Position numbers and translations under genes: made by a program. Below the pieces are notes generated by a model. That model worked only from the letters and a program-made list of their open reading frames with translations. It was not told where the DNA came from and did not search any database. From a bacterium (GTDB lineage Bacteria > BMS3Abin14), in contig JARGFV010000029.1 of NCBI GenBank assembly GCA_029210545.1, forward strand, positions 1 through 26,286: DNA of 26,286 nt. Direction: 5' to 3'. Below are positions 2,127 through 24,224 of this stretch, piece after piece (position 1 is the first letter of the stretch; each line of letters opens with the position of its first letter).

Positions 2127-2196
2127 GGAGGTAAGAGATAAGAGATAGGGGATAAGTGATAAGAGACAAGGACTAAGAACCAGGAACCCGGAACCA
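2127..2196. repeat. heptanucleotide quasi-tandem tract (10 units)
   Basis: Ten consecutive 7-mers in strict register. The word drifts stepwise along the tract: it starts near GGAGGTA, passes AGAGATA (twice), GGGGATA, AGTGATA, AGAGACA and AGGACTA, and ends at AGAACCA, GGAACCC, GGAACCA. Non-coding. Confidence 0.85.
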
Positions 2197-2301
2197 GTTC
2201 CTGCGGTCCGATATTCAGCCCAACTGACATTTTCTGACGCAATTTTTTCACTCTTTTCAGACCTATAAAAACTGACAACCCGATTCGGGGCACTAAAGTG
2301 A

Positions 2302-2330
2302 TGTAATTTCAGAAAGTTACAAAAATGTAA
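2302..2330. promoter_or_regulatory. paired palindromic half-sites upstream of the sigma-54 promoter
   Basis: TGTAA (2302-2306), TTACA (2317-2321) and TGTAA (2326-2330) form two overlapping inverted repeats: TGTAA-N10-TTACA and TTACA-N4-TGTAA. They end 13 nt before the sigma-54 element. They could bind a dimeric regulator; enhancer sites usually lie further upstream, so a repressor is equally possible. Confidence 0.35.
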
Positions 2331-2343
2331 TAATCGCCGTTTT

Positions 2344-2360
2344 TTGGCATCGGGGTTGCA
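2344..2360 (+). promoter_or_regulatory. sigma-54 (RpoN) promoter
   Basis: TTGGCAT (2344-2350) and TTGCA (2356-2360) reproduce the -24/-12 element, with exactly 10 nt between the invariant GG (2346-2347) and GC (2358-2359). Compared with the consensus TGGCACG-N4-TTGCW only two less-conserved positions differ. The start should be near 2371, about 40 nt before the ribosome site of the 42-aa gene. Confidence 0.7.
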
Positions 2361-2423
2361 GATACAATACCGTAATCTGTTTGTATCGCATCGCACAGTC
2401 AGCAGAGTTCGGAGGATCATGAA

Positions 2424-2552
2424 ATGGAAACCAGGACAGCAGCCTTTGATCGGAAAAGGGAAATCCTCATCGGGATGGGCTGGTTGTTTGCAGCCGGCGG
2501 CTACTTTCTCGCGTACCATCTCTTCTGGGATGTCCTGACTTCCCTCAGGTGA
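2424..2552 (+). CDS. small membrane protein (42 aa) under sigma-54 control, hypothetical
   Basis: The ATG at 2424 has GGAGG at 2411-2415, 8 nt upstream. The 42-residue product has a charged N-terminus (METRTAAFDRKRE), one hydrophobic segment at about 14-35 containing GMGWLFAAGGYFLAY, and a short aromatic tail. A competing frame opening with the ATG at 2419 gives a sequence without structure and is rejected. The gene stands alone behind the RpoN-type promoter at 2344-2360, so expression probably depends on an activator ATPase responding to nitrogen, envelope stress or a two-component signal. No family is recognised. It resembles the 45-aa gene 500 nt upstream only in size and single-helix design. 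Confidence 0.55.
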   Translation: METRTAAFDRKREILIGMGWLFAAGGYFLAYHLFWDVLTSLR

Positions 2553-2605
2553 CGATAACGGGCTGACAGCCCGATCGAAACTTGTTTTACCCCCACCCCA
2601 CCCCC

Positions 2606-2635
2606 GGCCCGGGGCCGGTTTTCCGGCTCCGGGCC
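2606..2635. terminator. strong GC-rich hairpin after the 42-aa gene
   Basis: Arms 2606-2618 and 2623-2635 pair over 13 positions with one G-T wobble around a TTTT loop. No T run follows on the + strand, so it is only terminator-like. It lies 54 nt after the 42-aa gene stop. Confidence 0.45.
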
Positions 2636-2655
2636 AACTTCGTTAAAATAGTCCG

Positions 2656-2727
2656 GAGTGCAGAACTGAAGCAGTGCAGAGTGCAGAGGACTGAGCCTCG
2701 GACTCTAAACTCTAAACTCTAAACTCT
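2656..2727. repeat. heptanucleotide quasi-tandem tract
   Basis: Units include GAGTGCA, GAACTGA, CAGTGCA, GAGTGCA, GAGGACT, GAGCCTC, GGACTCT and then AAACTCT three times. The register is 7 nt except for a 2-nt slip at 2670-2671. A CCCCCACCTT decamer is repeated twice just after (2732-2751). Confidence 0.8.
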
Positions 2728-2752
2728 GTTTCCCCCACCTTCCCCCACCTTC

Positions 2753-2871
2753 TTGCGAAGCCATCAAATTAGGATAGATTCGCAAAAAGTCCAGGCGGGA
2801 CTTTTCCTGGCTCGTTAATGTCCTGGGCGCCCCGCGCGGGGCGCATTGATGACTTTTTGTGAAGCCATCAA
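2753..2871. repeat. modular hairpin repeat element, copy A (upstream of mraZ)
   Basis: The element is bounded by direct repeats of TTGYGAAGCCATCAA (2753-2767, 2857-2871). Inside are an AAAAGTCC/GGACTTTT 8-bp stem with a 5-nt loop, a linker reading CTGGCTCGTTAATGTCCTGG (2806-2825), and the 18-bp palindrome GCGCCCCGCGCGGGGCGC (2827-2844). The same modules occur inverted and in the same relative order at 4499-4821. Confidence 0.8.
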
Positions 2872-2974
2872 TTATCGTTCCAAAATGGAATTCCCGGCCC
2901 ATTTTCCCCTTCCCTATGGAGAATCCGGACATGTAGGTGATTCGCCATAACCATTTGAAAACCTGTTTGTTTCC

Positions 2975-3003
2975 TTGACAATAGGGTACCTCGACCGTAT
3001 ATT
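2975..3003 (+). promoter_or_regulatory. main dcw promoter (Pmra), sigma-70
   Basis: TTGACA (2975-2980), exactly 17 nt, then TATATT (2998-3003). The predicted start near 3010 falls inside the MraZ boxes, so a bound repressor would cover it. A longer mraZ frame beginning at 2975 would start inside this -35 element and is therefore not used. Confidence 0.85.
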
Positions 3004-3033
3004 GTGGGGCGAAGTGGTAGAAAGTGGGGAAAG
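3004..3033 (+). promoter_or_regulatory. MraZ operator: three 10-nt direct repeats
   Basis: GTGGGGCGAA (3004-3013), GTGGTAGAAA (3014-3023) and GTGGGGAAAG (3024-3033) are in exact 10-nt register. MraZ of E. coli binds TGGGN repeats spaced by 5 nt, and mollicute MraZ binds AAAGTG-type boxes; these repeats match both descriptions. They lie between the -10 and the mraZ ATG, the expected autoregulatory site. Confidence 0.85.
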
Positions 3034-3040
3034 TCGGCAA

Positions 3041-3493
3041 ATGAGCCAGGCACCTTTCCGCGGTCGATTCCAGCATGCCCTGGATGACAAGGGACGCCTC
3101 AGCATCCCCTCCAGGTTCCGGGATATCCTTGTCCAGGAGCACGACGGCCGCCTTGTTGTGACCAATCTGCCCCATTGTCTGGTGGCCTACACGCCAGGCC
3201 AGTGGGAGGCCATCGAATCCAGGTCCGACAAGCTCTCCACTGTCAAAAGCAACGTCCAGAGCTTTCTCCGCTTCTTCTACTCCGGTGCCACCGAGTGCGA
3301 ACTGGATCGCCAGGGACGGATCCTCATCCCTCCCTCTCTCAGGGAAGCCGTCGGCCTCGATCGCCAGGTCGTGGTGGCCGGGATGCTGAACCGCCTCGAG
3401 ATCTGGAGCCAGTCCAGGTGGGACGACGAGATGAAGAAGGCGGTGGAGAACTTCGACAATATCTCGGACGAACTGGCCGATTTCGGCCTGTAG
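3041..3493 (+). CDS. mraZ: transcriptional regulator MraZ
   Basis: MraZ is a ring-forming DNA-binding protein of the AbrB/SpoVT fold that regulates the dcw operon through repeats in its own promoter. The product is 150 residues, close to the usual 140-155. Both halves of the duplicated fold are visible: FRGRFQHALDDKGRLSIPSR (about 6-25) and ATECELDRQGRILIPPSLRE (about 84-103), each with the family's D-x-K/Q-G-R-hydrophobic-x-I-P core. The start at 3041 gives the usual short N-terminus before FRG; GGGGA at 3026-3030 serves as ribosome site and overlaps the third MraZ box, so a bound repressor could also affect translation. It is the first gene of the cluster, 3 nt before rsmH. Confidence 0.95.
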   Translation: MSQAPFRGRFQHALDDKGRLSIPSRFRDILVQEHDGRLVVTNLPHCLVAYTPGQWEAIESRSDKLSTVKSNVQSFLRFFYSGATECELDRQGRILIPPSLREAVGLDRQVVVAGMLNRLEIWSQSRWDDEMKKAVENFDNISDELADFGL

Positions 3494-3496
3494 ATC

Positions 3497-4444
3497 GTGA
3501 CCGGAATCGAGGCAACAGGAAGCCACTTTCCGGTCCTGCTGGAGGAGATCCTCGAGGGTCTCAATATCCGTCAGGGCGGAGTGTATCTCGACGGCACGGT
3601 GGGCGCCGGCGGGCATGCTGATGCCCTCCTGTCCAGGTATTCCGGAACCCGCCTCATCGGTCTTGATCGGGATCCCGCCGCGCTGGAAGCAGCCGGCGCC
3701 CGACTTGCGGTTTACGGCGACCGCGTGATCCTGGTTCACCGGGATTTCCGGTTCCTTAGCGATGCCCTCGACGAGACGGGGACCGGGGTGGTGGACGGCA
3801 TCATCCTCGACCTCGGTGTGTCGTCCATGCAGCTGGATCAGGGCGACAGGGGGTTCTCTTTCACCCATGACGGCCCCCTTGACATGAGAATGGATCCCGG
3901 CAGCGGATCGCCGGCATCGGAACTGGTCAACGGGATGGATCCGCGAGATCTCGCCAATCTCCTTTTCCGCTACGGGGAAGAGAGGCGGAGCAGAGCCATT
4001 GCCGCGGCCATCGCCAGGGCGAGGGATGCCGGTCCCGTCGAGACGACGGCGCGCCTCGCGTCCATAGTCGCCGCCGTGCCGGGTATGGGGAGGATAAGGA
4101 ATATCCACCCTGCCACCCGCACCTTCCAGGCTCTGAGGATCGCGGTCAACGACGAGTTGGCCGCCGTCGAGGATGCAGTGCCGGCAGGAGTAGGGCGGTT
4201 GGCGCCGGGAGGGCGGATGGCCGTCATCAGTTTCCATTCTCTCGAGGACAGGATCGTCAAGAGAGGGTTTAAGGGACTGGAAAAGCCGTGCCGGTGTCCC
4301 AAGGAGATGCCCGAGTGCCGGTGCGGCCTTGTCAGCGCGGGGAAGGTGATCACCAGGCGCCCCATCGTCCCGACGGAGCGGGAGGCCAGGGAAAACCCCC
4401 GCAGCCGGAGCGCGAAGCTGAGAGTGTTCGAGAAAAAACAGTAG
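3497..4444 (+). CDS. rsmH: 16S rRNA (cytosine-1402-N4)-methyltransferase RsmH
   Basis: RsmH methylates N4 of C1402 in the decoding centre of 16S rRNA with S-adenosylmethionine, in the cytoplasm. The product is 315 residues, typical for the family. Seen: HFPVLLEEIL at 10-19, the SAM-binding loop DGTVGAGGHADALL at 32-45, LDRDP at 56-60, LDLGVSSMQLD at 104-114 with RGFSF and GPLDMRMD after it, ISFHSLEDRIVKR near 250, a short Cys-rich loop (CRCPKEMPECRCG), and the C-terminal PTEREARENPRSRSAKLR. The start is GTG, 3 nt after the mraZ stop. The last codon and the TAG stop are supplied by the first unit of a CAGTAGN heptamer tract. A 420-nt repeat-filled gap then separates it from ftsL. Confidence 0.95.
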   Translation: MTGIEATGSHFPVLLEEILEGLNIRQGGVYLDGTVGAGGHADALLSRYSGTRLIGLDRDPAALEAAGARLAVYGDRVILVHRDFRFLSDALDETGTGVVDGIILDLGVSSMQLDQGDRGFSFTHDGPLDMRMDPGSGSPASELVNGMDPRDLANLLFRYGEERRSRAIAAAIARARDAGPVETTARLASIVAAVPGMGRIRNIHPATRTFQALRIAVNDELAAVEDAVPAGVGRLAPGGRMAVISFHSLEDRIVKRGFKGLEKPCRCPKEMPECRCGLVSAGKVITRRPIVPTEREARENPRSRSAKLRVFEKKQ

Positions 4445-4469
4445 TCAGTAGCCAGTAGGCAGTAGCCAG
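4439..4469. repeat. CAGTAGN heptamer tract overlapping the rsmH stop
   Basis: Four perfect-register units (CAGTAGT, CAGTAGC, CAGTAGG, CAGTAGC) plus CAG. The first unit provides the final Gln codon and the TAG of rsmH. Confidence 0.9.
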
Positions 4470-4498
4470 AATAAAACCTGAAATTCGCGATTTAACGG

Positions 4499-4821
4499 TG
4501 ATGGACCCGCAAAAAGTCCATCAACGCGCCCCGCGCGGGGCGCCCAGATCAATGAACAGCCGCGCCTGGGAAGGGCGCCCGGATCGATGACCCGTGAAAA
4601 CTGCCGCGCCTGGGAGAGGCGCCCGGATCGAGTGCCAATGGCTGTGTGTTCGATCCGTGAGGGAACCGAAAACCACGCTTTTCGGTTCCCGTTGAGCCAA
4701 AGTCTCGCACAGACTTTGGTGATCTATCAGCAGTCATTGTGAGGAAAGGGAAAACGACGCTTTTCCCTTTCCCCAGGACATTAATGAGCCAGGAAAAGTC
4801 CCGACTGGACTTTTTGCGACC
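4499..4821. repeat. modular hairpin repeat element, copy B (between rsmH and ftsL)
   Basis: This is an inverted and expanded relative of the element at 2753-2871. The outer modules are shared: a CGCAAAAAGTCCATCAA edge, the same 18-bp palindrome (4526-4543), and at 4773-4820 the inverse of 2782-2829 with only two or three differences. About 230 nt of extra modules are inserted: two direct copies of a ~29-nt block (4559-4587, 4603-4631) and three perfect stem-loops, 4661-4690 (12 bp), 4697-4719 (9 bp) and 4743-4772 (12 bp). No open frame of note lies inside. It splits the dcw cluster after rsmH. Confidence 0.8.
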
Positions 4822-4823
4822 AT

Positions 4824-4865
4824 ATCAACTGTGAACTGTAAATCGTGAACTGTGGACTGAAATCA
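4824..4865. repeat. GTGAACT heptamer tract running into the ftsL start
   Basis: Six 7-mers in register (ATCAACT, GTGAACT, GTAAATC, GTGAACT, GTGGACT, GAAATCA). The last unit contributes the A of the ftsL ATG. No Shine-Dalgarno is recognisable in front of ftsL. Confidence 0.85.
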
Positions 4866-5188
4866 TGACAGTCGCCGCCGAAGCAAAAGCCAGACAGACC
4901 GAGCGCCTGAGCGCCAGGGGCGGCCTCCGGGATTTCGCCTTTCTCCTGCTTCTGGCCGCCCTGATCGGATGTGCCGTGTTCATGACGGCATTAAGGCGTG
5001 TGGCCTTCATCGAGATGGGTTACGAGATCAGGCAGCTCGAGAGGAAAGAGACGGAGCTCCTCCATCTCAAGAGCGAGATGGAGATTGAAAAGGCCATGCT
5101 TTCAAGCCCGGAGCGTATCGAGAGGGAGGCCCGGTCCAGGTTCGGATTGAGAGAGCCAGAACCCGGGCAGCTCAGGATCCTGCCATGA
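4865..5188 (+). CDS. ftsL: cell division protein FtsL
   Basis: FtsL is a small bitopic protein that forms the FtsQ-FtsL-FtsB core of the divisome and activates FtsW/FtsI. The 107-residue product has a short cytoplasmic tail, one transmembrane helix at about 22-42, and a periplasmic leucine-rich coiled coil at about 48-80 (IRQLERKETELLHLKSEMEI), followed by the typical SPERIEREARSRFGLREPEP end. Sequence conservation in this family is low, so the call rests on architecture plus position between rsmH and ftsI. Its stop overlaps the ftsI ATG (ATGA). It has no clear ribosome site because the heptamer tract abuts the start codon, so initiation may be weak or the true start may differ. Confidence 0.88.
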   Translation: MTVAAEAKARQTERLSARGGLRDFAFLLLLAALIGCAVFMTALRRVAFIEMGYEIRQLERKETELLHLKSEMEIEKAMLSSPERIEREARSRFGLREPEPGQLRILP

Positions 5189-7152
5189 GACGGGATCATG
5201 GAAATGGCTGCCGGTGGGACGGGAATGTCCGGGCGCGCATCCGTTTCCTCGGATTCGTTCTTCCCCTGCTGCTGGTGCTGCCGGCAGCCAAGGCGTTCTA
5301 TCTCCAGGTCTACCAGCAGGACGCTCTCTCCCAGTGGGCTGCCCGCCAGAGCCATATGGTCGAAAAGGTGGCCCCGTACCGCGGCGCTATCATCGACCGG
5401 AACGGACAGCCCCTGGCTATCAGCGTTCCCGTACCGTCCATCTACGCGGTGAGAGAAGAGGTGCAAACCAAGGCGGACGCGGCCGGAAGACTGTCAAGGG
5501 TCCTGGAGATGGACAGGAAGGCCCTGCTGCAGCGGCTTTCCAGGGGAAGCGGTTTCGTCTGGCTCAAGCGGCTCGTTGAGCCTGAGGTCGCCGAAAAGGT
5601 CCGGCAGATGGAGATCGCCGGCGTGGCCATCAGTACCGAGTCGAGGCGCTACTACCCCAATATGGATCTCGCCGGTGCCGTCCTGGGTTTTGTCGGAACC
5701 GACGGCGGACTCGAAGGCCTGGAACGCTCCCTGGAAGAGCATCTGCGCGGAGGGGACGGGATCAGGGTCCTGGATATGGACGCCAGGGGTAAAAGTCTCA
5801 CTTCCGCCGATCCGTGGGAGCGCCATCCCGCCGCGGGAAACGCCGTTCAACTGACCCTGGACCGGAATATCCAGTTTTTCGTGGAGCAGAGTCTCAGGGA
5901 GGGCTGCGGCGGCGCCGGGGCGAAAGCCGGTGCCGCGGTCATCCTCGAATCGGCCACGGGCCGGATCCTCGCCATGGCGAGCTACCCGGGGTTCAACCCC
6001 AACGATTTTTCAAGTTACAGCCAGTCCCGTTATCGCAACCGGAGCATCAACTCCGTTTACGAACCGGGCTCGACCTTCAAGGTGATCACCGTGGCGGCCG
6101 CCCTGGATGAGAACGTCTTCGACGAGATGGACATCCTGTTCTGCGGCAACGGGAAGTTCGAGGTCGCCGACGTCGTGATCAACGATCACGTACCCCACGC
6201 GTGGCTTACCCTCATGGGGATCATCCGGAAATCCAGCAACATCGGGGCCAGCAAGATCGGCCTCGAGCTCGGGACCGAACGCCTGGGCAGGTACGTGAAC
6301 GGTTTCGGGTTCGGACAGAAAACGGGGATTCTCCTCACCGGGGAGGGAAACGGGATCCTGCGCGGCGACAGGGAGTGGACCCAGGTGGACCTCGCAAACA
6401 TCTCCTTCGGCCAGGGGCTTGGAGTGACCCCCCTCCAGATGGTCAACGCGGTCAATGCCATCGCCACCGGCGGCGAACTGCTGAGCCCCTACATCGTGGA
6501 CCGGATAACCGCGCCGACGGGGGAACTGATCCTCAGGAACAGGCCTGGGATCGTGAGGAGGGTCATCACCCGGGACACGGCAGAAAAGTTGACCCGGATG
6601 ATGGAGACGGTGACGGAACCTGGAGGTTCCGGGACCAGGGCGGCCATCGAAGGTTACGGAGTCGCGGGAAAGACGGGCACCGCCCAGAAGTTTGACCTCG
6701 AGGCCGGACGTTACTCCCTGGAGACTTTTACCGCTTCCTTCGTGGGGTTCACGCCGTCCCGGAAACCCGCGATCACGGCTATCGTGATCGTGGACGAACC
6801 GGAGATAGAGACCTACGGCGGTACCGTGGCGGCTCCCATCTGGGCCGACATGGTGAGCAAGACCCTCAAGTACCTGAACATCTCGCCCGACAGGGACGGA
6901 GGTGAGGGTCCCGATGGCGCGAAAAACGAGGGAAGATGGGCAGACGCCGTCAAGGATCGGGAGACGCCGGACCCGGCGGCCATGCCCGATCTCGCGGGGC
7001 TTACCCTGAGAGAGGCTCTTTCCAGGCTGGGAGCGTCCGGCGCGAAGGTCCAGGTCACCGGGACCGGGCTGGTCGTGAGCCAGGACCCGGGTCCCGGTGT
7101 CGACATCGGCGATGCGGTTTTACTGAAACTTCTGCCGAGGGCAGCGGGATGA
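5185..7152 (+). CDS. ftsI: septal peptidoglycan transpeptidase FtsI (PBP3, class B) with PASTA domain
   Basis: FtsI crosslinks septal peptidoglycan in the periplasm, working with FtsW. The product is 655 residues. Seen: an N-terminal membrane anchor at about 20-38, the PBP dimerisation/pedestal region (YRGAIIDRNGQPLA near 70), and the three transpeptidase motifs: S296-T-F-K (in YEPGSTFK), S350-S-N and K496-T-G-T. A C-terminal PASTA domain (about 600-654) begins MPDLAGLTLREAL; PASTA-bearing class B PBPs are common in Gram-positives and in deltaproteobacteria but absent from E. coli FtsI. It overlaps ftsL by 4 nt, so translation is coupled. A 277-nt repeat-bearing gap follows before murE. Confidence 0.95.
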   Translation: MRRDHGNGCRWDGNVRARIRFLGFVLPLLLVLPAAKAFYLQVYQQDALSQWAARQSHMVEKVAPYRGAIIDRNGQPLAISVPVPSIYAVREEVQTKADAAGRLSRVLEMDRKALLQRLSRGSGFVWLKRLVEPEVAEKVRQMEIAGVAISTESRRYYPNMDLAGAVLGFVGTDGGLEGLERSLEEHLRGGDGIRVLDMDARGKSLTSADPWERHPAAGNAVQLTLDRNIQFFVEQSLREGCGGAGAKAGAAVILESATGRILAMASYPGFNPNDFSSYSQSRYRNRSINSVYEPGSTFKVITVAAALDENVFDEMDILFCGNGKFEVADVVINDHVPHAWLTLMGIIRKSSNIGASKIGLELGTERLGRYVNGFGFGQKTGILLTGEGNGILRGDREWTQVDLANISFGQGLGVTPLQMVNAVNAIATGGELLSPYIVDRITAPTGELILRNRPGIVRRVITRDTAEKLTRMMETVTEPGGSGTRAAIEGYGVAGKTGTAQKFDLEAGRYSLETFTASFVGFTPSRKPAITAIVIVDEPEIETYGGTVAAPIWADMVSKTLKYLNISPDRDGGEGPDGAKNEGRWADAVKDRETPDPAAMPDLAGLTLREALSRLGASGAKVQVTGTGLVVSQDPGPGVDIGDAVLLKLLPRAAG

Positions 7153-7429
7153 TGGGCTTTCTGAACGTCCATCAGGCAGCTCCCGCCGCAAGGCGGGAGC
7201 CGGGGTGGGGCTCAAAACAGCCCTCTTTCATTATTCTTTCCCTCCCCTGGGGGGAGGGAACTGAAGGGAGGGGGAAAACACCCCCCCTCACCCCGGCCCT
7301 CTCCCCTTCGACGCACTTTGTTTGCTCAGGACTGCGCCATGATTGGGAGAGGGAGAATGAGGTGGAAAGCGATCGTATTAGCCCCGCCTCGCAAACGGCT
7401 GGCGGAGAATTTTTTCGAGGTTATCATCG
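7153..7429. repeat. intergenic hairpin and REP-like repeat region between ftsI and murE
   Basis: A perfect 9-bp stem capped by a GCAA (GNRA) tetraloop lies at 7179-7200 and could act as an RNA stability or pausing element. It is followed by a long imperfect inverted repeat of C-rich then G-rich blocks (about 7236-7362), of the CCCTCACCCCGGCCCTCTCC / GGGAGAGGGAGAATGAGG type that recurs between genes in many proteobacteria. No gene is visible. Confidence 0.65.
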
Positions 7430-8899
7430 ATGATGACCCTGGCAAAGCTCATGGAGGGGATCGAGGGGATCAGGATCCTCGGTGACGGGTCGATCCCGGT
7501 CCGTTCCATCCGGTACGACTCCAGGAGGGTGTCGCCCGGGGACCTTTTCGCGGCTATCAGGGGTGAACATTTCGACGGGACACGGTTCATAAAGGATGCC
7601 GCCGACAGGGGAGCCGCGGCTTTCCTCGTACCTGAGGGGGCAGACCGCCGCGTGGAGGGAACCTACGCTTTTGCCGGGGACGTTCGCCGGGCCCTCGCGC
7701 TGGCCTCGAGGAACCTGTTCGACGATCCTTCCTCCAGGCTCAAGGTCGTGGGGATCACGGGCACCAACGGCAAAACGACCACCTCCTACATAATCCACGG
7801 CATCCTGGAGGGAAACGGGATCTCCGCCGGACTCATCGGAACGGTTCAGTACCTCGTGGGCGGGCAGGTCATCAGCGCCGCCAGAACGACACCCGAGGCG
7901 CCCGACCTTTACGGCCTCATGGACGGGATGGTCAAGGCCGGAAGTTCCGCCTGCGTCATGGAAGTTTCTTCTCACGCCCTGACACTTAGCAGGATCCAGG
8001 GGGTGAGCCTGGAGGTCGCCGTTTTCACGAACCTCACACGTGACCACCTTGATTTTCACAGGGACATGGAGGCGTACTTCCGGGCGAAGGCGGCCCTGTT
8101 CGAAACCCCGGGAGTCCGCCACCGGGTGGTGAACCGGGACGACACTTACGGGAAGCGTCTTCTGGACGAGCTCGGTGTACAGGTCCTGACCTACGGAATG
8201 GCCGATGCCGACATCGTTCCCGTCGGTGAGATCCGGGGAGGGGACCGGGGCACCAGGTGTACCCTCTCGACTCCCTGGGGACAGGTGGAGGTGAACACGT
8301 CCCTTCCGGGCGATTTCAACCTCTACAACGTCATGGCGGCCACCGCGGCGTGCGGTCTCCTCGGCCTTACCAGTGAACAGATCGGGCGGGGGCTGGCCGT
8401 GGTGGGAAACGTCCCTGGAAGGTTCGAAAAGGTGGATCGAGGGCAGCCCTGGGCGGCCATCGTGGACTACGCCCACACACCGGATGCCCTGGAGAACCTC
8501 CTGGCAAACACCAGGAAGCTCACCGCTGGAAGGGTCCTCGTGGTGTTCGGCTGCGGCGGGGACAGGGACAGGAGCAAACGGCCCCTCATGGGAGAAGCCG
8601 CAGGGCGCCTCGGAGACGTCGTCTACGTGACCTCCGACAACCCCAGGAGCGAGGACCCGTCGGCCATCATCGACGACATCATGGAGGGCCTGGCTCATCC
8701 CGCCGGCAAGGTCGTGAGGGTCGAGGACAGAAGAGAGGCCATCGCAATGGCGGTGGCGGAGGCCAGGGAAGGGGACATGGTGGTGGTTGCCGGCAAGGGT
8801 CACGAGAACTACCAGATCATCGGCCAGCGCGTTCTGCCCTTCTCCGACGTGGACGAACTTTCCCACGCCATCGGGAAGGCTGCCGGGGGAACGTCGTGA
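7430..8899 (+). CDS. murE: UDP-MurNAc-L-Ala-D-Glu:meso-diaminopimelate ligase MurE
   Basis: MurE adds the third stem-peptide residue to UDP-MurNAc-dipeptide in the cytoplasm, using ATP. The product is 489 residues, usual for the family. Seen: an N-terminal domain with YDSRRVSPGDLFAAIRG (29-45), the ATP loop GITGTNGKTTT (108-118), the EVSSHAL stretch, TNLTRDHLDFH, and D403-N-P-R in TSDNPRSEDP. DNPR at this position is the known signature for meso-diaminopimelate specificity rather than lysine, which supports a Gram-negative envelope. Two ATGs are adjacent (7430, 7433); CGAGG at 7416-7420 suits either. The stop overlaps the murF GTG. Confidence 0.96.
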   Translation: MMTLAKLMEGIEGIRILGDGSIPVRSIRYDSRRVSPGDLFAAIRGEHFDGTRFIKDAADRGAAAFLVPEGADRRVEGTYAFAGDVRRALALASRNLFDDPSSRLKVVGITGTNGKTTTSYIIHGILEGNGISAGLIGTVQYLVGGQVISAARTTPEAPDLYGLMDGMVKAGSSACVMEVSSHALTLSRIQGVSLEVAVFTNLTRDHLDFHRDMEAYFRAKAALFETPGVRHRVVNRDDTYGKRLLDELGVQVLTYGMADADIVPVGEIRGGDRGTRCTLSTPWGQVEVNTSLPGDFNLYNVMAATAACGLLGLTSEQIGRGLAVVGNVPGRFEKVDRGQPWAAIVDYAHTPDALENLLANTRKLTAGRVLVVFGCGGDRDRSKRPLMGEAAGRLGDVVYVTSDNPRSEDPSAIIDDIMEGLAHPAGKVVRVEDRREAIAMAVAEAREGDMVVVAGKGHENYQIIGQRVLPFSDVDELSHAIGKAAGGTS

Positions 8900-10320: not shown

Positions 10321-10321
10321 G

Positions 10322-11404: not shown

Positions 11405-11412
11405 GCGCCGGC

Positions 11413-15004: not shown

Positions 15005-15339
15005 GACGGACGCGGAGACACGGGGACACGGGGACACGGAGACACGGGGCGAAAAACCTCGGCTGGCCGACTGGGAGATTTGGAGAAAAATACGTCCGTC
15101 ATTGCGAGCCGGTTCCAAGCGAAGCAATCTCAGGCTCTATGGCACTGAGGCCCGGATTTTAACGCAGAGTACGCGAAGGAACGCAGAGGGAAACCTGGAT
15201 CCAGGGGGAAGAACAGGGAAAAACAGGGAGATGGGAGAAAAGGGTGGGGAGAAGCAGAGAGCAGAGAGCAGGGAATAGCAGGTCTTTTGACCTTTCCCTC
15301 CTCCCTTCTGCCTGACGACCGTTTATTGAGGAGTCATCA
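15005..15339. repeat. repeat-filled gap between murG and murC
   Basis: It contains: four GGRGACAC octamers in register (15014-15045); a copy of the widespread bacterial repeat CGTCATTGCGAGC...GAAGCAATCT (15097-15130); an ACGCAGAG-type repeat (15162-15189); and a purine-rich heptamer tract at about 15223-15278 (ACAGGGA, GATGGGA, ..., AGAGAGC twice). Most of its right half reads as G/A-rich 7-mers. No gene is visible, and no terminator. The last 14 nt carry the murC ribosome site. Confidence 0.75.
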
Positions 15340-16716: not shown

Positions 16717-16726
16717 AGGAGTGAAG

Positions 16727-17659: not shown

Positions 17660-18563
17660 GAATCTCGCAAAAGTCGCGGTTCTCATGGGCGGGAATTCCG
17701 CGGAGCGGGAGGTCTCCCTGGTCACGGGAAGCTCGATCCTGGAGGCGCTGGGGGAAGGCGGGCGCGAAGCCGTCGGGATCGACACCGCCGGCCCCTGGGC
17801 CGAGGAGATGCGCCGGGAAGGGGCCGGTGTCGCCTTCATCGCCCTTCACGGCAGGGGCGGGGAGGACGGCACGATCCAGGGAGCCCTGGAACTCATGGGG
17901 ATCCCCTTCACGGGCCCGGGGGTCCTGGCTTCGGCTCTGGCCATGGACAAGATCATGACCAAACGGGTCCTTATGGCCTGCGGGATCCCGACCCCCGGTT
18001 TCGTGGAGCTGGGGCCGGGAAGCTACGACATGCCCATCATGATGGGATTTCCCGTGGTGGTCAAACCCAACCGTGAGGGTTCCACCATAGGGATCTCGGT
18101 TGTCCGGGAGGCAAGGGACCTTCCGGGGGCGATCCGCACCGCCGCCGCCCACGACCCCGACGTCCTGGTAGAAGCTTTCGTGGAAGGGGACGAACTCACG
18201 GTGGGAGTCCTCAACGGTGAACCCCTGGCCGTGGTGCAGATCGTTACGGCCACCGGTTTTTACGATTACGAGACCAAGTACGTCACGGGCGCGGACGATT
18301 ACCGGGTTCCCGCTCCCATCGGCTTTGAGGCTACGCTGAAAGTCCAGGAGATGGCCGGCCTCTCCGCGCGGGCGCTGAGGTGCTGCGGTGCGGTGCGGGT
18401 GGATATCCGGGGCGCCGGAGAGCGGTACGAGGTGATCGAGGTGAACACGATCCCGGGGATGACGCCCACGAGCCTGCTGCCGAAATCGGCGGCGGGGGCC
18501 GGGATCGATTTCGTGAGCCTGGTCCTCGGGATGCTGGACGCGGCGGGAGAGGGCAGCCGGTGA
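17652..18563 (+). CDS. ddl: D-alanine--D-alanine ligase Ddl
   Basis: Ddl joins two D-Ala with ATP to supply MurF, in the cytoplasm. The product is 303 residues, the short DdlB type usual in dcw clusters. Seen: VLMGGNSAEREVSLVTG (10-26), HGRGGEDGTIQG (66-77), the ATP-grasp lysine region VVVKPNREGSTIGISV (135-150), VEAFVEGDELTVGVL, DYETKYVTG, and the Mg/D-Ala site EVNTIPGMTPTSLLPKSA (263-280). The ATG lies inside the end of murB, and its TGA overlaps the ftsQ GTG, so translation is probably coupled on both sides. Confidence 0.96.
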   Translation: MDKNLAKVAVLMGGNSAEREVSLVTGSSILEALGEGGREAVGIDTAGPWAEEMRREGAGVAFIALHGRGGEDGTIQGALELMGIPFTGPGVLASALAMDKIMTKRVLMACGIPTPGFVELGPGSYDMPIMMGFPVVVKPNREGSTIGISVVREARDLPGAIRTAAAHDPDVLVEAFVEGDELTVGVLNGEPLAVVQIVTATGFYDYETKYVTGADDYRVPAPIGFEATLKVQEMAGLSARALRCCGAVRVDIRGAGERYEVIEVNTIPGMTPTSLLPKSAAGAGIDFVSLVLGMLDAAGEGSR

Positions 18564-19459
18564 AGACGAAGCTAACCAGGACGAACAGGAAGGCGGTCGC
18601 CGCGGCCGGGAAAAGGCCGTCGGTGAAGGGCAAAAAGCCGGTCAATACCGGCGCCGTCACCCGCCACTACGTGGTGCGGACCTGGTGGGTCCTCCGGGGC
18701 ACGGTCCTGGGAGCCGTGTTCCTGGGAGTCCTGTACGGCGGCTACCTCGGCGTCCTTCGGTTCGTCGGCCTGGAATCCCTCTCGGTGAAGAACATCACCA
18801 TCGAAGGGTGCCGGAAGATGTCCCCGGAAAGCATCCTCACCCTGTCGGGCGTCAACAGGGGAGAGCCTCTTCTCAAGGTCGACCTGGCCGAGGTCCGGGC
18901 CCGGGTCCTGCGCCACCCTGCTGTCAGGGACGCCACGGTCGTGCGCGAGCTCCCCGACACCCTGAGGATCTCGGTCCAGGAGAGGTCCCCCGTGGCCGCC
19001 CTCATGGGCTACGACTATTCCCTGGTGGACGCCGAAGGGGTCGTCGTGGAGCGTGTCCCGGTCTACCCGGGCGGGTATCCGCTGATCACGGGCTCGGCCG
19101 GATCCGCACAGCCCGGCCGCAAGGCGGCGGAGACTCTCCCGGCCCTCGAGGTGCTCGGCAGGCTCACGGCCTCCGGGCTCGTGGGAGCGGACCGGATCAG
19201 CGAGCTCATGACGGGAGAGGACACGGTCAGGGTCTCCCTCATGGGGAGCGGCACCGTGCTGGTCTTCTCGAAGAAAAACATCCAGGCCCAGGTGGGCAGA
19301 CTCGCCCGCCTCGTCGAGGCAGGCGCCTTCGACCCGCGATCGGCAGGCTACGACCTGAGGTTCGAGGGACGCGTCATCGGCATGGCGGAAAAAAAGGAAC
19401 ATGCGGGGAGCGGACGGACAGCTTCCCCCGCGGGAGGTAGATCTTATGGCCAAGGGTAG
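18560..19459 (+). CDS. ftsQ: cell division protein FtsQ
   Basis: FtsQ is a bitopic divisome scaffold that holds FtsL/FtsB. Starting at the GTG in the GTGA overlap with ddl, the product is 299 residues: a ~45-residue basic cytoplasmic tail rich in Lys/Arg, a transmembrane helix at about 46-67, a POTRA domain at about 73-143 (LSVKNITIEGCRKMSPESIL, then HPAVRDATVVRELPDTLRIS), and a beta domain reading YSLVDAEGVVVE then VSLMGSGTVLVF. This is the normal FtsQ/DivIB layout. An open frame continues 60 codons upstream inside ddl and is rejected. Its last 14 nt overlap ftsA, whose ribosome site lies within ftsQ. Confidence 0.9.
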   Translation: MKTKLTRTNRKAVAAAGKRPSVKGKKPVNTGAVTRHYVVRTWWVLRGTVLGAVFLGVLYGGYLGVLRFVGLESLSVKNITIEGCRKMSPESILTLSGVNRGEPLLKVDLAEVRARVLRHPAVRDATVVRELPDTLRISVQERSPVAALMGYDYSLVDAEGVVVERVPVYPGGYPLITGSAGSAQPGRKAAETLPALEVLGRLTASGLVGADRISELMTGEDTVRVSLMGSGTVLVFSKKNIQAQVGRLARLVEAGAFDPRSAGYDLRFEGRVIGMAEKKEHAGSGRTASPAGGRSYGQG

Positions 19460-20681
19460 GGAAAGGATCGTCGTTGGCCTTGATGTCGGCACCACCAAGA
19501 TCTGCGCGGTGGTGGCAGCTGTGGCCGACGGCGGGAGATGCGAGATCGTGGGTATTGGGACCACGCCGTCCAAGGGACTTCGCAAGGGAGTGGTGATCAA
19601 CATCGATTCCACCGTGGACTCCATCAAGAAGGCGGTGGAAGAGGCCGAACTCATGTCCGGTGTCCCCATACAGGGGGTCTACGCGGGGATCGCGGGCGGA
19701 CACATCAAGGGGTTCAATAGCCACGGCGTGGTGGCGGTCAAGAACAGGGAAGTCTCCCGGAAGGACATCGAGAGGGTCATCGATGCGGCCCAGGCGGTCG
19801 CCATGCCCCTGGACCGCGAGGTCATCCACATCCTGCCCCAGGAGTACATCGTCGACGACCAGGACGGCATCGTCGATCCCCTGGGGATGTCGGGTGTCCG
19901 CCTCGAGGCCCGGGTGCACATCGTCACCGGGGCCGTCACTTCGGCCCAGAACATCATCAAGAGCTGCCACCGCGCGGGCCTGGACGTGCTGGACATCGTC
20001 CTGGAGCCCCTGGCGGCCGCCGACGCGGTGCTGACCGAGGAAGAGAAGGATCTCGGGGTCGCCCTCGTGGACATCGGCGGCGGCACCACCGACGTGGCCA
20101 TCTTCGGGGGCGGGAGTATCAAGCACACCGCGGTGCTGGCGCTGGGAGGCGTCAACCTCACCAACGACATCGCCTACGGCCTGAGGACGCCGGCCACCGA
20201 GGCGGACAAGATCAAGAGGCTGTACGGCTGCGCCCTGGTGGAGATGGTGAAGGAAGACGAAATGGTCGAGGTCCTTTCCGTGGGCGGCCACAAGCCGAGG
20301 TCGGTCTCGCGGGTCGCCCTCGCGGAGATCATCGAGCCGAGGGCCGAGGAGTTCTTCGACCTCATCAACAGGGAGATCCTCAAGTCCGGCTACGACGACC
20401 GCATCGCCTCGGGGGTGGTCCTCACCGGCGGGACGGTGATCATGCCGGGGATGACCGAACTGGCAGAGCAGGTCTTCAACCTGCCGGTGCGCCTGGGCAA
20501 CCCCATGAACATCGGCGGCCTCGTGGACGTGGTGAACAGCCCCATGTACGCCACGGCCGTCGGTCTCGTGAAATACGCGTCCACCCATACCAGCGAAGGG
20601 GGCGGGTTCGGGACCAACGAGTCCCGGATCTTCGAGAAGATCCTCGTCAAGATGAAGGGGTGGCTGAAGGAGTTTTTCTAA
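19446..20681 (+). CDS. ftsA: cell division protein FtsA
   Basis: FtsA is the actin-like ATPase that tethers FtsZ filaments to the cytoplasmic membrane. The ATG at 19446 has GGGAGG at 19432-19437, 8 nt upstream; an earlier in-frame ATG at 19401 lacks such a site. The product is 411 residues. Seen: the phosphate-1 motif VVGLDVGTTKICAVVAA (9-25), the 1C-domain region around 85-165 (GIAGGHIKGFNSHGVVAV), phosphate-2 VDIGGGTTDVAIF (208-220), LTGGTVIMPGM, and a C-terminal amphipathic helix FEKILVKMKGWLKEFF that would insert into the membrane. It overlaps ftsQ by 14 nt and is separated from ftsZ by a heptamer-repeat spacer. Confidence 0.96.
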   Translation: MAKGRERIVVGLDVGTTKICAVVAAVADGGRCEIVGIGTTPSKGLRKGVVINIDSTVDSIKKAVEEAELMSGVPIQGVYAGIAGGHIKGFNSHGVVAVKNREVSRKDIERVIDAAQAVAMPLDREVIHILPQEYIVDDQDGIVDPLGMSGVRLEARVHIVTGAVTSAQNIIKSCHRAGLDVLDIVLEPLAAADAVLTEEEKDLGVALVDIGGGTTDVAIFGGGSIKHTAVLALGGVNLTNDIAYGLRTPATEADKIKRLYGCALVEMVKEDEMVEVLSVGGHKPRSVSRVALAEIIEPRAEEFFDLINREILKSGYDDRIASGVVLTGGTVIMPGMTELAEQVFNLPVRLGNPMNIGGLVDVVNSPMYATAVGLVKYASTHTSEGGGFGTNESRIFEKILVKMKGWLKEFF

Positions 20682-20683
20682 CA

Positions 20684-20760
20684 ATTTCAAATTTCAAGTT
20701 TCAAATTTCAAGGAGGGAACGCGGACTGTTTGAAATCTGAAATGTGAATTTTGAAATCAA
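20684..20760. repeat. paired inverted heptamer tracts between ftsA and ftsZ
   Basis: Four ATTTCAA-type units (20684-20711) face four AAATCTG/AAATGTG-type units (20733-20760). The second set approximates the reverse complement of the first, so the RNA could fold back. The tract starts two bases after the ftsA stop. A small hairpin (GAGCGG 20764-20769, CCGCTC 20777-20782) lies just before the ftsZ ribosome site. Confidence 0.85.
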
Positions 20761-20803
20761 CGAGAGCGGTTCGGGGCCGCTCGAGTTCACGGGAGGTGAA
20801 CGG

Positions 20804-21952
20804 ATGTTTACATTTGTGGAAGACAGCAGGGACCTCAAGGCCCGGATAAAGGTCGTTGGGGTGGGGGGCGGCGGCGGGAACGCCCTGAATACGATGATAA
20901 CGTCCCGCCTGAAGAACGTGGAGTTCATCGCGGCCAACACCGACGCGCAGGCCCTCAAGACGTCCCTTGCGGCCACGAAGATCCAGCTGGGCCTGGAGGT
21001 GACGCACGGCCTGGGCGCCGGGGCCGACCCGGAGGTCGGCCGGAGGTCGGCCGAGGAGAGCGAGAGCTTTCTCCGCGAGAGCCTGGCCGGGTGCGAGATG
21101 GTCTTCGTCACCGCCGGGATGGGCGGCGGCACCGGCACCGGCGGGGCCCCCGTGGTCGCGAGGATCGCGAAGGAGTCGGGGGCGCTAACGGTGGGGGTGG
21201 TCACGAAGCCCTTCGGCTTCGAGGGCAAGGTGAGGCTGAGGAACGCCGAAGACGGCCTGGAGGAGCTGCGCAAGGCCGTGGACACCCTCATCGTCATCCC
21301 CAACGACAGGATCTTCTCGGTCATCAAGCACGGCGCCAGGGCGGGGGACGCTTTCGCCATCGTGGACGACGTCCTCAACTGCGCCGTCAAGGGGATCAGC
21401 GACCTCATCACCAAGCCGGGCCGGATCAACCTGGACTTCGCCGACGTCAAGAGGGTCATGGAAGGCAAGGGCAGGGCCCTCATGGGGACCGGCATCGCGG
21501 GCGGCGACGACCGTGCCGCCGAGGCCGCGCAGACGGCGATCTCCAGCCCCCTCCTCGAGGACAACAGCATCGACGGGGCCACCGGCGTCCTCATCAACAT
21601 CACGGCCAGCAAGGATGTCGGGATCCAGGAGATACAGCATGCCTCCTCCATCATCCAGAGCGCCGTCCACGAGGAGGCCGAGATCATCTTCGGCTGGGTG
21701 GAGGACGAAACCATCGGCGACGAGCTCATGGTCACCGTCATCGCCACCGGTTTCGGGCGGGAGCCCGGGAGCCGCGGGGGCGTCACCGCGACGGGTTACC
21801 GCAAGGAGCGCCGGAACGACATGGAGATCCCGGCCTTCGTGCGCAAGTCCGAGTTCGAGCAGAAGTCCGACACGGTCAGGCGCCCGTCCGTGGCCCTTAT
21901 CGAGGAGGAGGAGTTCGAGGTGCCGGCCTTCCTGAGGCGCCAGGCGGACTGA
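20804..21952 (+). CDS. ftsZ: cell division protein FtsZ
   Basis: FtsZ is the tubulin-like GTPase that forms the Z ring. The ATG at 20804 follows GGGAGGTGA (20791-20799); an in-frame ATG at 20744 lies in the repeat tract and is rejected. The product is 382 residues. Seen: the GTP-binding start IKVVGVGGGGGNALNTM (15-31), NTDAQAL, the tubulin signature GMGGGTGTGG (105-114), TKPFGFEGKVR, the catalytic T7 region NLDFADVKRVM, and an acidic linker with two copies of the FtsA-binding peptide type: MEIPAFVRKS and, at the very C-terminus, FEVPAFLRRQAD. The radical SAM gene follows after 5 nt. Confidence 0.97.
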   Translation: MFTFVEDSRDLKARIKVVGVGGGGGNALNTMITSRLKNVEFIAANTDAQALKTSLAATKIQLGLEVTHGLGAGADPEVGRRSAEESESFLRESLAGCEMVFVTAGMGGGTGTGGAPVVARIAKESGALTVGVVTKPFGFEGKVRLRNAEDGLEELRKAVDTLIVIPNDRIFSVIKHGARAGDAFAIVDDVLNCAVKGISDLITKPGRINLDFADVKRVMEGKGRALMGTGIAGGDDRAAEAAQTAISSPLLEDNSIDGATGVLINITASKDVGIQEIQHASSIIQSAVHEEAEIIFGWVEDETIGDELMVTVIATGFGREPGSRGGVTATGYRKERRNDMEIPAFVRKSEFEQKSDTVRRPSVALIEEEEFEVPAFLRRQAD

Positions 21953-21957
21953 CCCAG

Positions 21958-23451
21958 GTGTCGTCCGGGACCGCCGAGGCGGAAACCTGGATCTCGCCGC
22001 CCCCCCGAGGCGGCGGGGTGCCGGTGGCCGTGGCCTACCCCAACAGCTACCGGGTGGGCATGTCGAACCTCGGGTACCAGGCGGTCCTGGGGGCGTTCCT
22101 GCGGCACCCGGGCTTCGACGCCAGAAGGGTGTTCTGGGACGGCCGGGCCCTCACCTTCCCCGACGGGGGCCGAAACCTGGATGACTTCGCAGCGGTAGCC
22201 TTTTCCGTTTCCTACCAGCCGGACCTTGTTCACCTCCCCCGGATGCTGGAAACGGGAAAGGCCCCTTCAGGAAAGGCCGCCCACGGGCCGATCGTCATCG
22301 GCGGCGGCGTCGCCCTGACCATCAACCCCGAAACTTCGGCCTCCTGGTTCGACCTGGTGGTCCTCGGCGACAGCGAGCCGGTCCTGCCTGCCATCATGGA
22401 CGGGATCCTGGCCTCGCACCGGGACGGCGCCGGCCTTAACGAAAAGCTCTCCTCCCTTGACGGCATCTACATCCCCGATCAGCGCCCGCGCACCGTGAAG
22501 CCGATCTTTCTCAAGGACCTGGACACCCGGCCGGCCCGCCCGGCCGTGCTCTCGAAAAGCTCGGAGTTCGGGGAGCTGTATCCCGTCGAGATCTCCAGGG
22601 GGTGCTCAGCCGGCTGCCGGTTCTGCGCCGCCGGGACCGTGTGCGGGCCCGTGCGGTTCCTGGGGTTTGACACCTTTGTCCGGGAAGCGGGCAGAGGGCT
22701 TACGTTCCGACACAAGATAGGCCTCGTAGGTACGGCCGTCTCTTATCACCCCCGTCTCGAAGAGATGGCCGTCTTCACACTGGAGGAGGGAGGAACCTTC
22801 TCTCCCTCCTCCATCCGCGCCGAGAGGATCACCCCCCGGCTCGCGGCCCTGCTGGCAAGGGCCGGGCACCGCACGGTGTCCCTCGCGCCCGAGGCGGGAA
22901 CCGAGAAGCTCCGGTCGGCGGTGGGAAAAGGTTTTTCCGACGGCCTTTTCCTCGAAAAGGCGGGGATCCTCCTCGAAGCAGGCATCCCCAACATCAAGCT
23001 TTACTTCATGGCGGGGCTCCCAGGCGAGGAGGACGCGGACATGGCCGGGATCGTGGATCTCGCTGCACGGCTGCGCGACCTCATGGTCCGGCACGGCCGG
23101 AGCCGCGGCAGGGTCGGGACGGTCACGGTGAGCGTCAACCCCTTCGTGCCCAAACCCCGCACGGCTTTCGAGCGGATGCCCATGGCGGAAGAGTCGGCCC
23201 TGACCCGGCGGCTGAAGATGGTCCGGAAAGGGCTCGGACCGGTGGGCGGGGTCAGGGTCCAGACGGGCTCCGTGAGGGGGGCCTGCCTGGACGCGCTGCT
23301 CTCCCTGGGCGGCCGGCAGGTGGCCACCGTGCTGGACAAGCTGCCTCCCGGCGGTGTATCAATAAAACGCCTGGTTAAGATCTTCCCCGAAGCGGAGCAG
23401 GTTCTGTTCGGCCGCGGAGAAGGGGAGATGCCCTGGAGTTTTATAAAATAA
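21958..23451 (+). CDS. B12-binding-type radical SAM protein, uncharacterised
   Basis: The frame is open far upstream inside ftsZ; the GTG at 21958, 5 nt after the ftsZ stop, gives 497 residues and is the best start, though its ribosome site is weak. The N-terminal ~200 residues resemble the Rossmann-like B12-binding domain found ahead of radical SAM cores (YPNSYRVGMSNLGYQAVLG, then PIVIGGGVALTINPE and FDLVVLGDSE). The 4Fe-4S site is C216-x3-C220-x2-C223 in SRGCSAGCRFC. Later SLAPEAGTEKLR and KLYFMAGLPGEEDADM fit the SAM barrel. No conserved His of a base-off cobalamin motif is obvious. Reaction unknown. A radical SAM gene directly behind ftsZ is, from memory, also seen in Geobacter-type genomes, which supports the taxonomic guess. 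Confidence 0.85.
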   Translation: MSSGTAEAETWISPPPRGGGVPVAVAYPNSYRVGMSNLGYQAVLGAFLRHPGFDARRVFWDGRALTFPDGGRNLDDFAAVAFSVSYQPDLVHLPRMLETGKAPSGKAAHGPIVIGGGVALTINPETSASWFDLVVLGDSEPVLPAIMDGILASHRDGAGLNEKLSSLDGIYIPDQRPRTVKPIFLKDLDTRPARPAVLSKSSEFGELYPVEISRGCSAGCRFCAAGTVCGPVRFLGFDTFVREAGRGLTFRHKIGLVGTAVSYHPRLEEMAVFTLEEGGTFSPSSIRAERITPRLAALLARAGHRTVSLAPEAGTEKLRSAVGKGFSDGLFLEKAGILLEAGIPNIKLYFMAGLPGEEDADMAGIVDLAARLRDLMVRHGRSRGRVGTVTVSVNPFVPKPRTAFERMPMAEESALTRRLKMVRKGLGPVGGVRVQTGSVRGACLDALLSLGGRQVATVLDKLPPGGVSIKRLVKIFPEAEQVLFGRGEGEMPWSFIK

Positions 23452-23583
23452 AGTGGAAAGTGGAATAAAGAGCTGGAAGATGGAAGGTGGAAGGTGGAAG
23501 AAATCGTTTGAACCTTGCCTTGCTTCCCCATTCCGACTTCCCTGTTCCCTCTTCCTCATTCCCAATTCCCTTTGCCCTCTTCG
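23451..23583. repeat. two heptamer tracts between the radical SAM gene and maf
   Basis: First tract, 23451-23499: AAGTGGA twice, ATAAAGA, GCTGGAA, GATGGAA, GGTGGAA twice. Second tract, 23521-23583: nine units in register, of which seven share the form NNNTTCC (TGCTTCC, CCATTCC, GACTTCC and so on). The GGAA-bearing and TTCC-bearing halves are roughly inverse, so a fold-back is possible. The first tract begins with the final A of the radical SAM stop codon. Confidence 0.9.
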
Positions 23584-23593
23584 AGGAAAAACA

Positions 23594-24202
23594 ATGCCTG
23601 TAAGTTTTACCAAGCGCCTGTTCCGACGCAAGAAGCTCATCCTGGCCTCCGGTTCGCCCAGGCGGAAGGAGCTCATGGACCTCACGGGCCTGAAATACCA
23701 GGTCATTACCCCCACTGTGAGCGAGAGGGTCCACCCCGAGGAGGCGCCCAGGGACCACGTGCAGCGCCTGGCCCTGGAAAAGGCCATCAGCGTGGCGGCC
23801 AACAACCCGGACGACGTGGTGTTAGGGTGCGACACCATCGTCGTGGTGAACGGCCGCGCCATCCTCGGAAAGCCCCGCAACAAGAAAGAGGCCAGGGAGA
23901 TGCTGACTCAGATCGCCGGGCGGGAGCACACCGTGCTGTCGAGCGTGGTGGCCGTGTGGCACCGCAGGGGCAAGCAGCGCGCGGTGACGGTGGAAACCCG
24001 CGTGCGGGTCAAGCAGATCGAGGAGTGGGAGATGAACTGGTACCTCGACAGCGGCGAGCCCATGGACAAGGCGGGGGCGTATGCCATCCAGGGGAAGGGG
24101 GCGATCTTCATAGAGGGGATCGTGGGGAGCCATACCAACGTCATAGGGCTGCCGCTGATGGAGACGGTGATGTTGCTGAGAAGTTTCGGGGTACGGCTCT
24201 AG
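23594..24202 (+). CDS. maf: Maf-family nucleoside triphosphate pyrophosphatase
   Basis: Maf proteins hydrolyse non-canonical or selected NTPs (the YhdE group: dTTP, UTP) to the monophosphate; overproduction affects septum formation in Bacillus. The ATG at 23594 (GAGG 11 nt upstream) gives 202 residues. The frame extends upstream through the heptamer tract, which is not family sequence. Seen: LILASGSPRRKELM (15-28), then VVLGCDTIVVVNGRAILGKP (75-94) with the catalytic-base Asp at D80, and DKAGAYAIQGKGAIFIEGI with GSHTNVIGLPL near the end. The intact DTIV...GKP and the Gln of YAIQG fit the dTTPase/UTPase branch. Flanked on both sides by NNNTTCC heptamers. Confidence 0.92.
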   Translation: MPVSFTKRLFRRKKLILASGSPRRKELMDLTGLKYQVITPTVSERVHPEEAPRDHVQRLALEKAISVAANNPDDVVLGCDTIVVVNGRAILGKPRNKKEAREMLTQIAGREHTVLSSVVAVWHRRGKQRAVTVETRVRVKQIEEWEMNWYLDSGEPMDKAGAYAIQGKGAIFIEGIVGSHTNVIGLPLMETVMLLRSFGVRL

Positions 24203-24203
24203 G

Positions 24204-24224
24204 CAATTCCAGATTCCGAATTCC
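24204..24224. repeat. NNATTCC heptamer tract after maf
   Basis: Three units (CAATTCC, AGATTCC, GAATTCC) begin one base after the maf stop and share the word of the tract upstream of maf. Confidence 0.75.

Follow-up and report, generated by a model that had tools for sequence, protein, structure and literature searches.

Heptamer arrays of many words in the gaps of a bacterial dcw cluster and across its genome

Repeats of seven-base units are known from many bacteria, and no cause for them is generally accepted. They are conspicuous in the stretch of DNA analysed here – referred to below as the window, 26,286 nucleotides (nt) from a bacterium of the GTDB lineage BMS3Abin14 (assembly GCA_029210545.1, contig JARGFV010000029.1, forward strand) – which spans a dcw cluster and whose intergenic gaps carry tandem arrays at a pitch of 7 nt, built from different words in different gaps. 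What, then, holds the period constant while the word changes? We find that the arrays belong to a genome-wide population of dispersed repeats, drawn from a limited vocabulary and often arranged as inverted pairs; with a probability that we put at about one half, they are a multi-word variant of the Xanthomonas GGGNATC kind of repeat, spread by a factor that would recognise their sequence.

A seven-nucleotide period in gaps

The preliminary description of this stretch listed eight tracts, each of which scores best at period 7 and higher than dinucleotide-shuffled versions of itself (P ≤ 0.0015 throughout); the weakest are 24204-24224 and 15223-15278, and within the latter only 15253-15274 is heptameric. 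Over all gaps of the window, identity at lag 7 is 0.329, against 0.254 after shuffling (z 8.2); the excess returns with z 6.1 at lag 14 and z 3.3 at lag 21, and no other short lag exceeds z 3.2. Genome-wide tests were run on 0.8 Mb of stretches from the window's genome (hereafter G000), about 29% of its length. In the gaps of this sample, lag-7 identity is 0.2942 compared with about 0.257 at neighbouring lags, and harmonics stand out at lag 14 (0.2768) and lag 21 (0.2649), whereas the coding sequence of the same 0.8 Mb has no lag-7 excess. Tract counts agree: 115 kb of gaps held 95 tracts at period 7 (0.0 in shuffles) and 45 at period 8, the second commonest period in G000 (0.2 in shuffles), with 0–6 tracts at each of the periods 2–6 and 9–13. 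The period-locked repetition is therefore real, the excess at lag 7 being neither absent nor equalled at neighbouring lags, the two outcomes that the preliminary description had set against its own proposal.

Nor are the arrays peculiar to the dcw cluster. Counted at a score of at least 14, they occur throughout G000 at 10.7 per 100 kb, and three genomes of genus g4 have 21–30 per 100 kb, as against 0.5 across 390 kb of sequence belonging to 20 other families. The phylum itself is represented by 12 genomes, all of one family, the relatives of G000 being labelled G001–G011.

Words, units and inverted pairs

The words are neither free nor unrelated between tracts, as had been thought at first, but form a limited, recurrent vocabulary common to different genera. 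Among 137 tract words of G000, 45 are also exact tract words of G003, a member of another genus (10.6 for letter-shuffled words), and 46 are exact tract words of G011 (6.0 for letter-shuffled words); inside G000 there are 138 word collisions, against 18.9 after letter shuffling. Frequencies are genome-specific, so that each genome favours its own words, as it were a dialect. TGAGATC ×3, with up to 3 mismatches allowed, is matched 265 times in G003, 239 times in G008, 90 times in G000 and 79 times in G011, and not at all in G001, G004, G005, G006 or G010, whereas CTGATTA ×3 has 99 hits in G011, 68 in G000 and 10 in G003. Since hits overlap along one array, these figures are not numbers of arrays. 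When 1 mismatch at most is allowed, just 2 of 374 genomes from outside the family contain TGAGATC ×3.

In the clearest families the unit consists of six conserved positions and one free base. Of the 48 TGAGAT-N tracts, whose consensus departs from TGAGATC by one letter at most, 38 vary at the seventh position, and 3, 3, 5, 12, 2 and 1 at the other six; likewise, the last position of GTGAAC-N (consensus GTGAACA) varies in 25 of 30 tracts. These are unconditioned counts, per-position mismatch rates conditioned on the hexamer being left aside. This conservation, together with the recurrence of words, leaves the idea of free sequence, with selection on spacing rather than on sequence, unsupported. 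The pitch is nearly invariant: exact copies of TGAGAT are spaced by 7 nt 121 times, and by 6 nt and 8 nt once each.

Array size is constrained as well. Runs of three, four and five units number 25, 37 and 4 for TGAGAT and 13, 19 and 1 for TTGGAC; of six hexamers scored, four (TGAGAT, GTGAAC, TTGGAC and TTCCAC) peak at four units with a sharp drop at five, and GCAGAA and GATTAC have no such peak. Hexamer run lengths depend less on the detection threshold than does the histogram of tract lengths. The free bases of TGAGAT-N vary from locus to locus much as independent bases would (26 collisions of 3-base strings, 27.8 expected), those of GTGAAC-N and TTGGAC-N show slight excess repetition, and those of TTCCAC-N, GATTAC-N and CTGACT-N are shared between loci in excess. 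As for the drift from unit to unit first reported, it holds in some tracts, such as the ten-unit gradient at 2128-2195: where a tract has at least five units, nearer units are indeed more alike, identity falling with separation from 0.85 through 0.79, 0.71 and 0.65 to about 0.54. The clearest families, however, vary at one position of the unit.

Many arrays come in inverted pairs. Thirty per cent of 130 tracts have a reverse-complement partner (match score at least 12) no farther than 200 nt away, compared with 4% in a control made of the flanks of other tracts and with 6% in direct orientation; for tract pairs sharing one gap, inverted partners amount to 30% versus 3.5%. Several entries of the original eight-tract list, though correct as to period, are thus two inverted arms – upstream of mraZ, between ftsA and ftsZ, and before maf (Table 1). 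In the four words having more than one pair, polarity is constant (TGAGAT 10:0, GTGAAC 0:6, TTGGAC 4:0, GCAGAA 0:3), and so, given inverted orientation, a pair can fold into an imperfect stem-loop or cruciform. Along the stems, mismatches return at intervals of 7 and 14 nt. Hexamers of opposite arms pair at 95%, yet their free bases are complementary in just 4 of 32 cases – cases that come from fewer hairpins, the units of one arm not being independent – which argues against one arm having been copied from the other by folding back, and we reject that origin.

Tract density varies little with gap type (15.6, 15.0 and 11.9 per 10 kb in codirectional, convergent and divergent gaps), and hairpin density is 3.4, 2.8 and 1.4 per 10 kb, respectively. 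Within codirectional gaps, tracts tend toward either end, and 16 of 84 begin no more than 15 nt from the upstream stop codon. Sense-strand stem mismatches there are G–T in 69 cases and A–C in 73, equal numbers that do not point to selection on base pairing of the RNA.

Replacement between species and possible causes

Turnover was followed in 23 orthologous gaps of one species pair, G003 and G011, whose coding DNA is about 92% identical. The ftsA-ftsZ gap, compared also in G000, G008 and G009 (G001, G002 and G004 being left out), holds a hairpin with arms of TGAAAT in G000, TGAGAT in G003 and G008, and a TCTGGAC-like word in G011, the predicted folds of all four scoring z -5 to -6; in the G009 gap there is no hairpin with heptamer arms. 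Over the 40 nt that directly precede ftsZ, G003 and G011 share 95% identity, yet both arms and the loop differ; given this flank and the coding identity, the arms and loop have changed while the flank was kept. Similar word exchange is found at L098:6731-7021 and L098:10273-10475; hairpins resembling intrinsic terminators are flanked there by some of the arms. Gaps free of tracts are in several cases equal in length (109/109, 149/149, 804/804 and 66/66) and in others not. The expected gain and loss of whole units was seen at one clear locus, the RsmH-FtsL gap, where two arrays each have exactly one 7-nt unit more or fewer in G011 than in G003; these are the only two clean 7-nt indels inside tracts. 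Raw BLAST alignments of gaps gave no usable statistics of indel length, because arrays at orthologous positions are in many cases not homologous. Similarity in the flanks of arrays of the same word comes mostly from partner arms and duplicates.

How could such arrays arise? If they are dispersed repeats of the GGGNATC kind, a factor reading the repeated hexamer would spread and maintain the word families, slippage would add or remove 7-nt units, and families might overwrite one another over time, giving each genome its dialect. Several points tell against this account. No recognising factor was found; about 70% of tracts are without a detected inverted partner within 200 nt; GCAGAAC, TTTGGAC and CTGATTA have two or more variable positions, and with two or three such positions in other words the six-plus-one unit is limited to the clearest families; and spread by copying of DNA predicts shared free-base strings, which are in excess for TTCCAC, GATTAC and CTGACT but not for TGAGAT-N. 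Rather doubtful is a single machinery of fast-shifting specificity that would write or maintain, throughout the genome and at the borders of genes, oriented pairs of four-hexamer arrays at a pitch of 7 nt and thereby generate the species dialects.

A more serious competitor, if still an improbable one, is that the arrays are selected regulatory sites – either targets of a DNA- or RNA-binding protein that occupies several sites or, for the pairs, intercistronic RNA hairpins involved in termination, processing or stability. This would suit the conservation of particular positions, the size of four units, the constant polarity and the pairing of arms, as well as the long ftsA-ftsZ folds of four species, the intrinsic terminators flanked by some arms and the lower density of hairpins in divergent gaps; against it speak the small gap-type bias of single tracts, the equal numbers of G–T and A–C mismatches, the change of words at orthologous genes between closely similar species, and the many regulators that so many unrelated words would require. 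Purely neutral simple sequence repeats, made and drifting through local replication slippage, with template switching at quasi-palindromes supplying the inverted symmetry, would account for the decay of unit identity with separation and the one-unit differences between orthologues, but we think them unlikely: the period is nearly always 7 (or 8) and scarcely ever 5 or 6, words are common to different loci and genera, array size peaks at four with no steady decay, and the free bases of opposite arms fail to match. The copying of seven bases at a time with errors, as first proposed, captures the period-locked, genome-wide process and the unit gain and loss, and leaves the fixed-polarity pairs and the four-unit peak unexplained.

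Six templated positions and a free one would suit slippage on a short RNA template, as in telomerase-like synthesis by a reverse transcriptase, yet array-bearing G000, G001, G002, G008 and G011 lack any RVT_1 protein – only G003 and G009 have any – and this origin, largely refuted for enzymes of the RVT_1 type, is most improbable. Equally slight is the chance that the arrays are G-quadruplex elements, the nature suggested for GGGNATC repeats: both kinds prefer four units, but the four-unit peak and the pairing are also found in words without G runs (TGAGAT-N, GTGAAC-N and TTCCAC-N), and quadruplex formation is therefore untenable as its general reason. More broadly, dozens of words in one genome separate the variables, the constants being the 7-nt pitch, about four units, pairs of fixed polarity and, in the clearest words, the six-plus-one unit; this constancy rules out explanations tied to one sequence as the general cause. 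As words are replaced rapidly between 92%-identical species, the process should be observable in present-day strains.

Known repeats and further features of the window

Repetitive extragenic palindromic (REP) sequences and bacterial interspersed mosaic elements (BIMEs) are intergenic, dispersed palindromic repeats, often paired, REP having a fixed core of 20–40 nt. The short tandem repeats (STRRs) of filamentous cyanobacteria are heptanucleotide tandem repeats dispersed in the genome, with few words per strain. Our arrays resemble the former in being intergenic, dispersed and often paired, but consist of tandem heptamers whose words differ between loci, with no conserved palindromic core; they share with STRRs a variation of unit number between relatives (the RsmH-FtsL gap of G003 and G011, one clear locus), whereas STRRs, which are mentioned in PMC4692102, are defined without a paired inverted architecture.

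The closest likeness is with the dispersed intergenic heptamers of Xanthomonas (GGGNATC) and Nostoc (GGGGA(C/T)T), both of which prefer four units; the former has 70–75 convergent pairs, always one array per strand, and few between divergent genes (PMC4692102). Dispersed intergenic heptamers above chance, four-unit preference, a free base and inverted pairs of fixed orientation are common to GGGNATC repeats and those described here. Instead of one G-rich, quadruplex-capable word per genome, however, we find dozens, the main ones without G runs, at genome-specific frequencies; and while Xanthomonas repeats mostly stay in the same gene context (PMC4692102), words here are replaced at orthologous sites. 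In Geobacter metallireducens, the portion of the account considered here describes paired putative regulator-binding sites of classes 1–3 and GGACCGG elements, with 8–24 pairs per class, proposed as sites for IHF/HU or other regulators (PMC2700814). They, too, comprise three to five tandem heptamers or octamers, both classes side by side, paired on opposite strands at variable distance; that portion gives few word classes and does not describe word replacement, unlike the many words and the replacement seen here, and its class 3 (MTYCTGA, five tandem units) resembles our words, by description, only in part. The TAACTGA direct repeats of marine Beggiatoaceae are intergenic tandem heptamers as well, with 169 sets in one genome, but involve one word, related heptamers being rarely repeated, lie mostly just upstream of start codons and include one indirect repeat (PMC4679880). 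The arrays described here differ from these kinds by their many words, the genome dialects and the replacement at orthologous sites.

Table 1. Repeat arrays and inverted arms of the window
Position	Strand	Feature	Evidence
2128-2195	+	single heptamer array, ~10 units, changing gradually from AGAGATA to GGAACCA	period-7 score 31, ≤4 at other periods 3–12
2673-2688	+	left arm (AGTGCAG) of inverted pair upstream of mraZ	period-7 tract; pairs in fold of 2650-2730, z -1.6
2702-2727	+	right arm (ACTCTAA ×3.7) of the same pair	period-7 tract; fold of 2650-2730
4439-4469	+	CAGTAGN array; first unit contains rsmH stop codon (4442-4444)	period-7 tract
4827-4859	+	GTGAACT array, ending just before ftsL start (4865)	period-7 tract
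15009-15047	+	octamer array (GACACGGG type) in murG-murC gap	period search
15253-15274	+	heptameric AGCAGAG array preceding murC	P 0.001 against shuffles; 0.018 allowing any period 5–9
20683-20711	+	left arm (AATTTCA ×4) of ftsA-ftsZ hairpin	stem in predicted fold, z -3.8; whole gap z -5.5
20731-20757	+	right arm (TGAAATN ×4) of ftsA-ftsZ hairpin	stem in predicted fold; similar architecture in G003, G008, G011
23450-23500	+	left arm region (AAAGTGG ×2, then GGTGGAA ×4; arm 23471-23500) of inverted pair before maf	fold z -1.9
23538-23578	+	right arm (NNNTTCC ×6) of inverted pair upstream of maf	period-7 tract
24206-24224	+	short NNATTCC array directly after maf; weakest of set	P 0.0015 against shuffles

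Genes of the window were called with a simple hexamer model built for this analysis. Pfam supports MraZ, RsmH (MraW; gene identified by Methyltransf_5), FtsI with a PASTA domain, Mur ligases, MurG, FtsA, FtsZ and Maf; an FtsL/DivIC-like protein matches FtsL below the cut-off only, and the remaining dcw names follow gene order and similarity in relatives. The gene ending at 23451, before the inverted pair at 23450-23578, is by eye putatively radical-SAM-like. An Rfam search of the window gave no match. The stop codon of rsmH, TAG, forms part of the first CAGTAG unit, and an intrinsic-terminator-like hairpin (GGGGAAGCCTTGCGGCTTCCCC then GTTTT) at 2079-2100 adjoins the 2128-2195 array on its upstream side. 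The octamer array of the murG-murC gap, absent from the preliminary list of tracts, has a counterpart with GACAC words in the same gap of a second genus (G003, at L075).

Other dispersed repeats accompany the arrays. One palindromic, interspersed element is delimited by TCGCAAAAAGTC ... GACTTTTTGCGA and contains hairpins such as GGGAACCGAAAA-CCACGC-TTTTCGGTTCCC; it occurs at 2780-2862 and 4507-4819 of the window and also at 212 and 7407. Allowing up to 1 mismatch, its boundary motif is matched 129 times over 826 kb of G000, and 100 kb from G001 and another 100 kb from G002 gave no match. In G011 (L155, ~2555-2740) this element lies within a heptamer array that is uninterrupted in G003 (L093, 4363-4455), and the two look like the filled and empty site of the element. 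A second dispersed palindromic repeat, of about 165 nt, is found at 1540-1700 and 4093-4258 of L091 in G003, with dozens of matches in G011.

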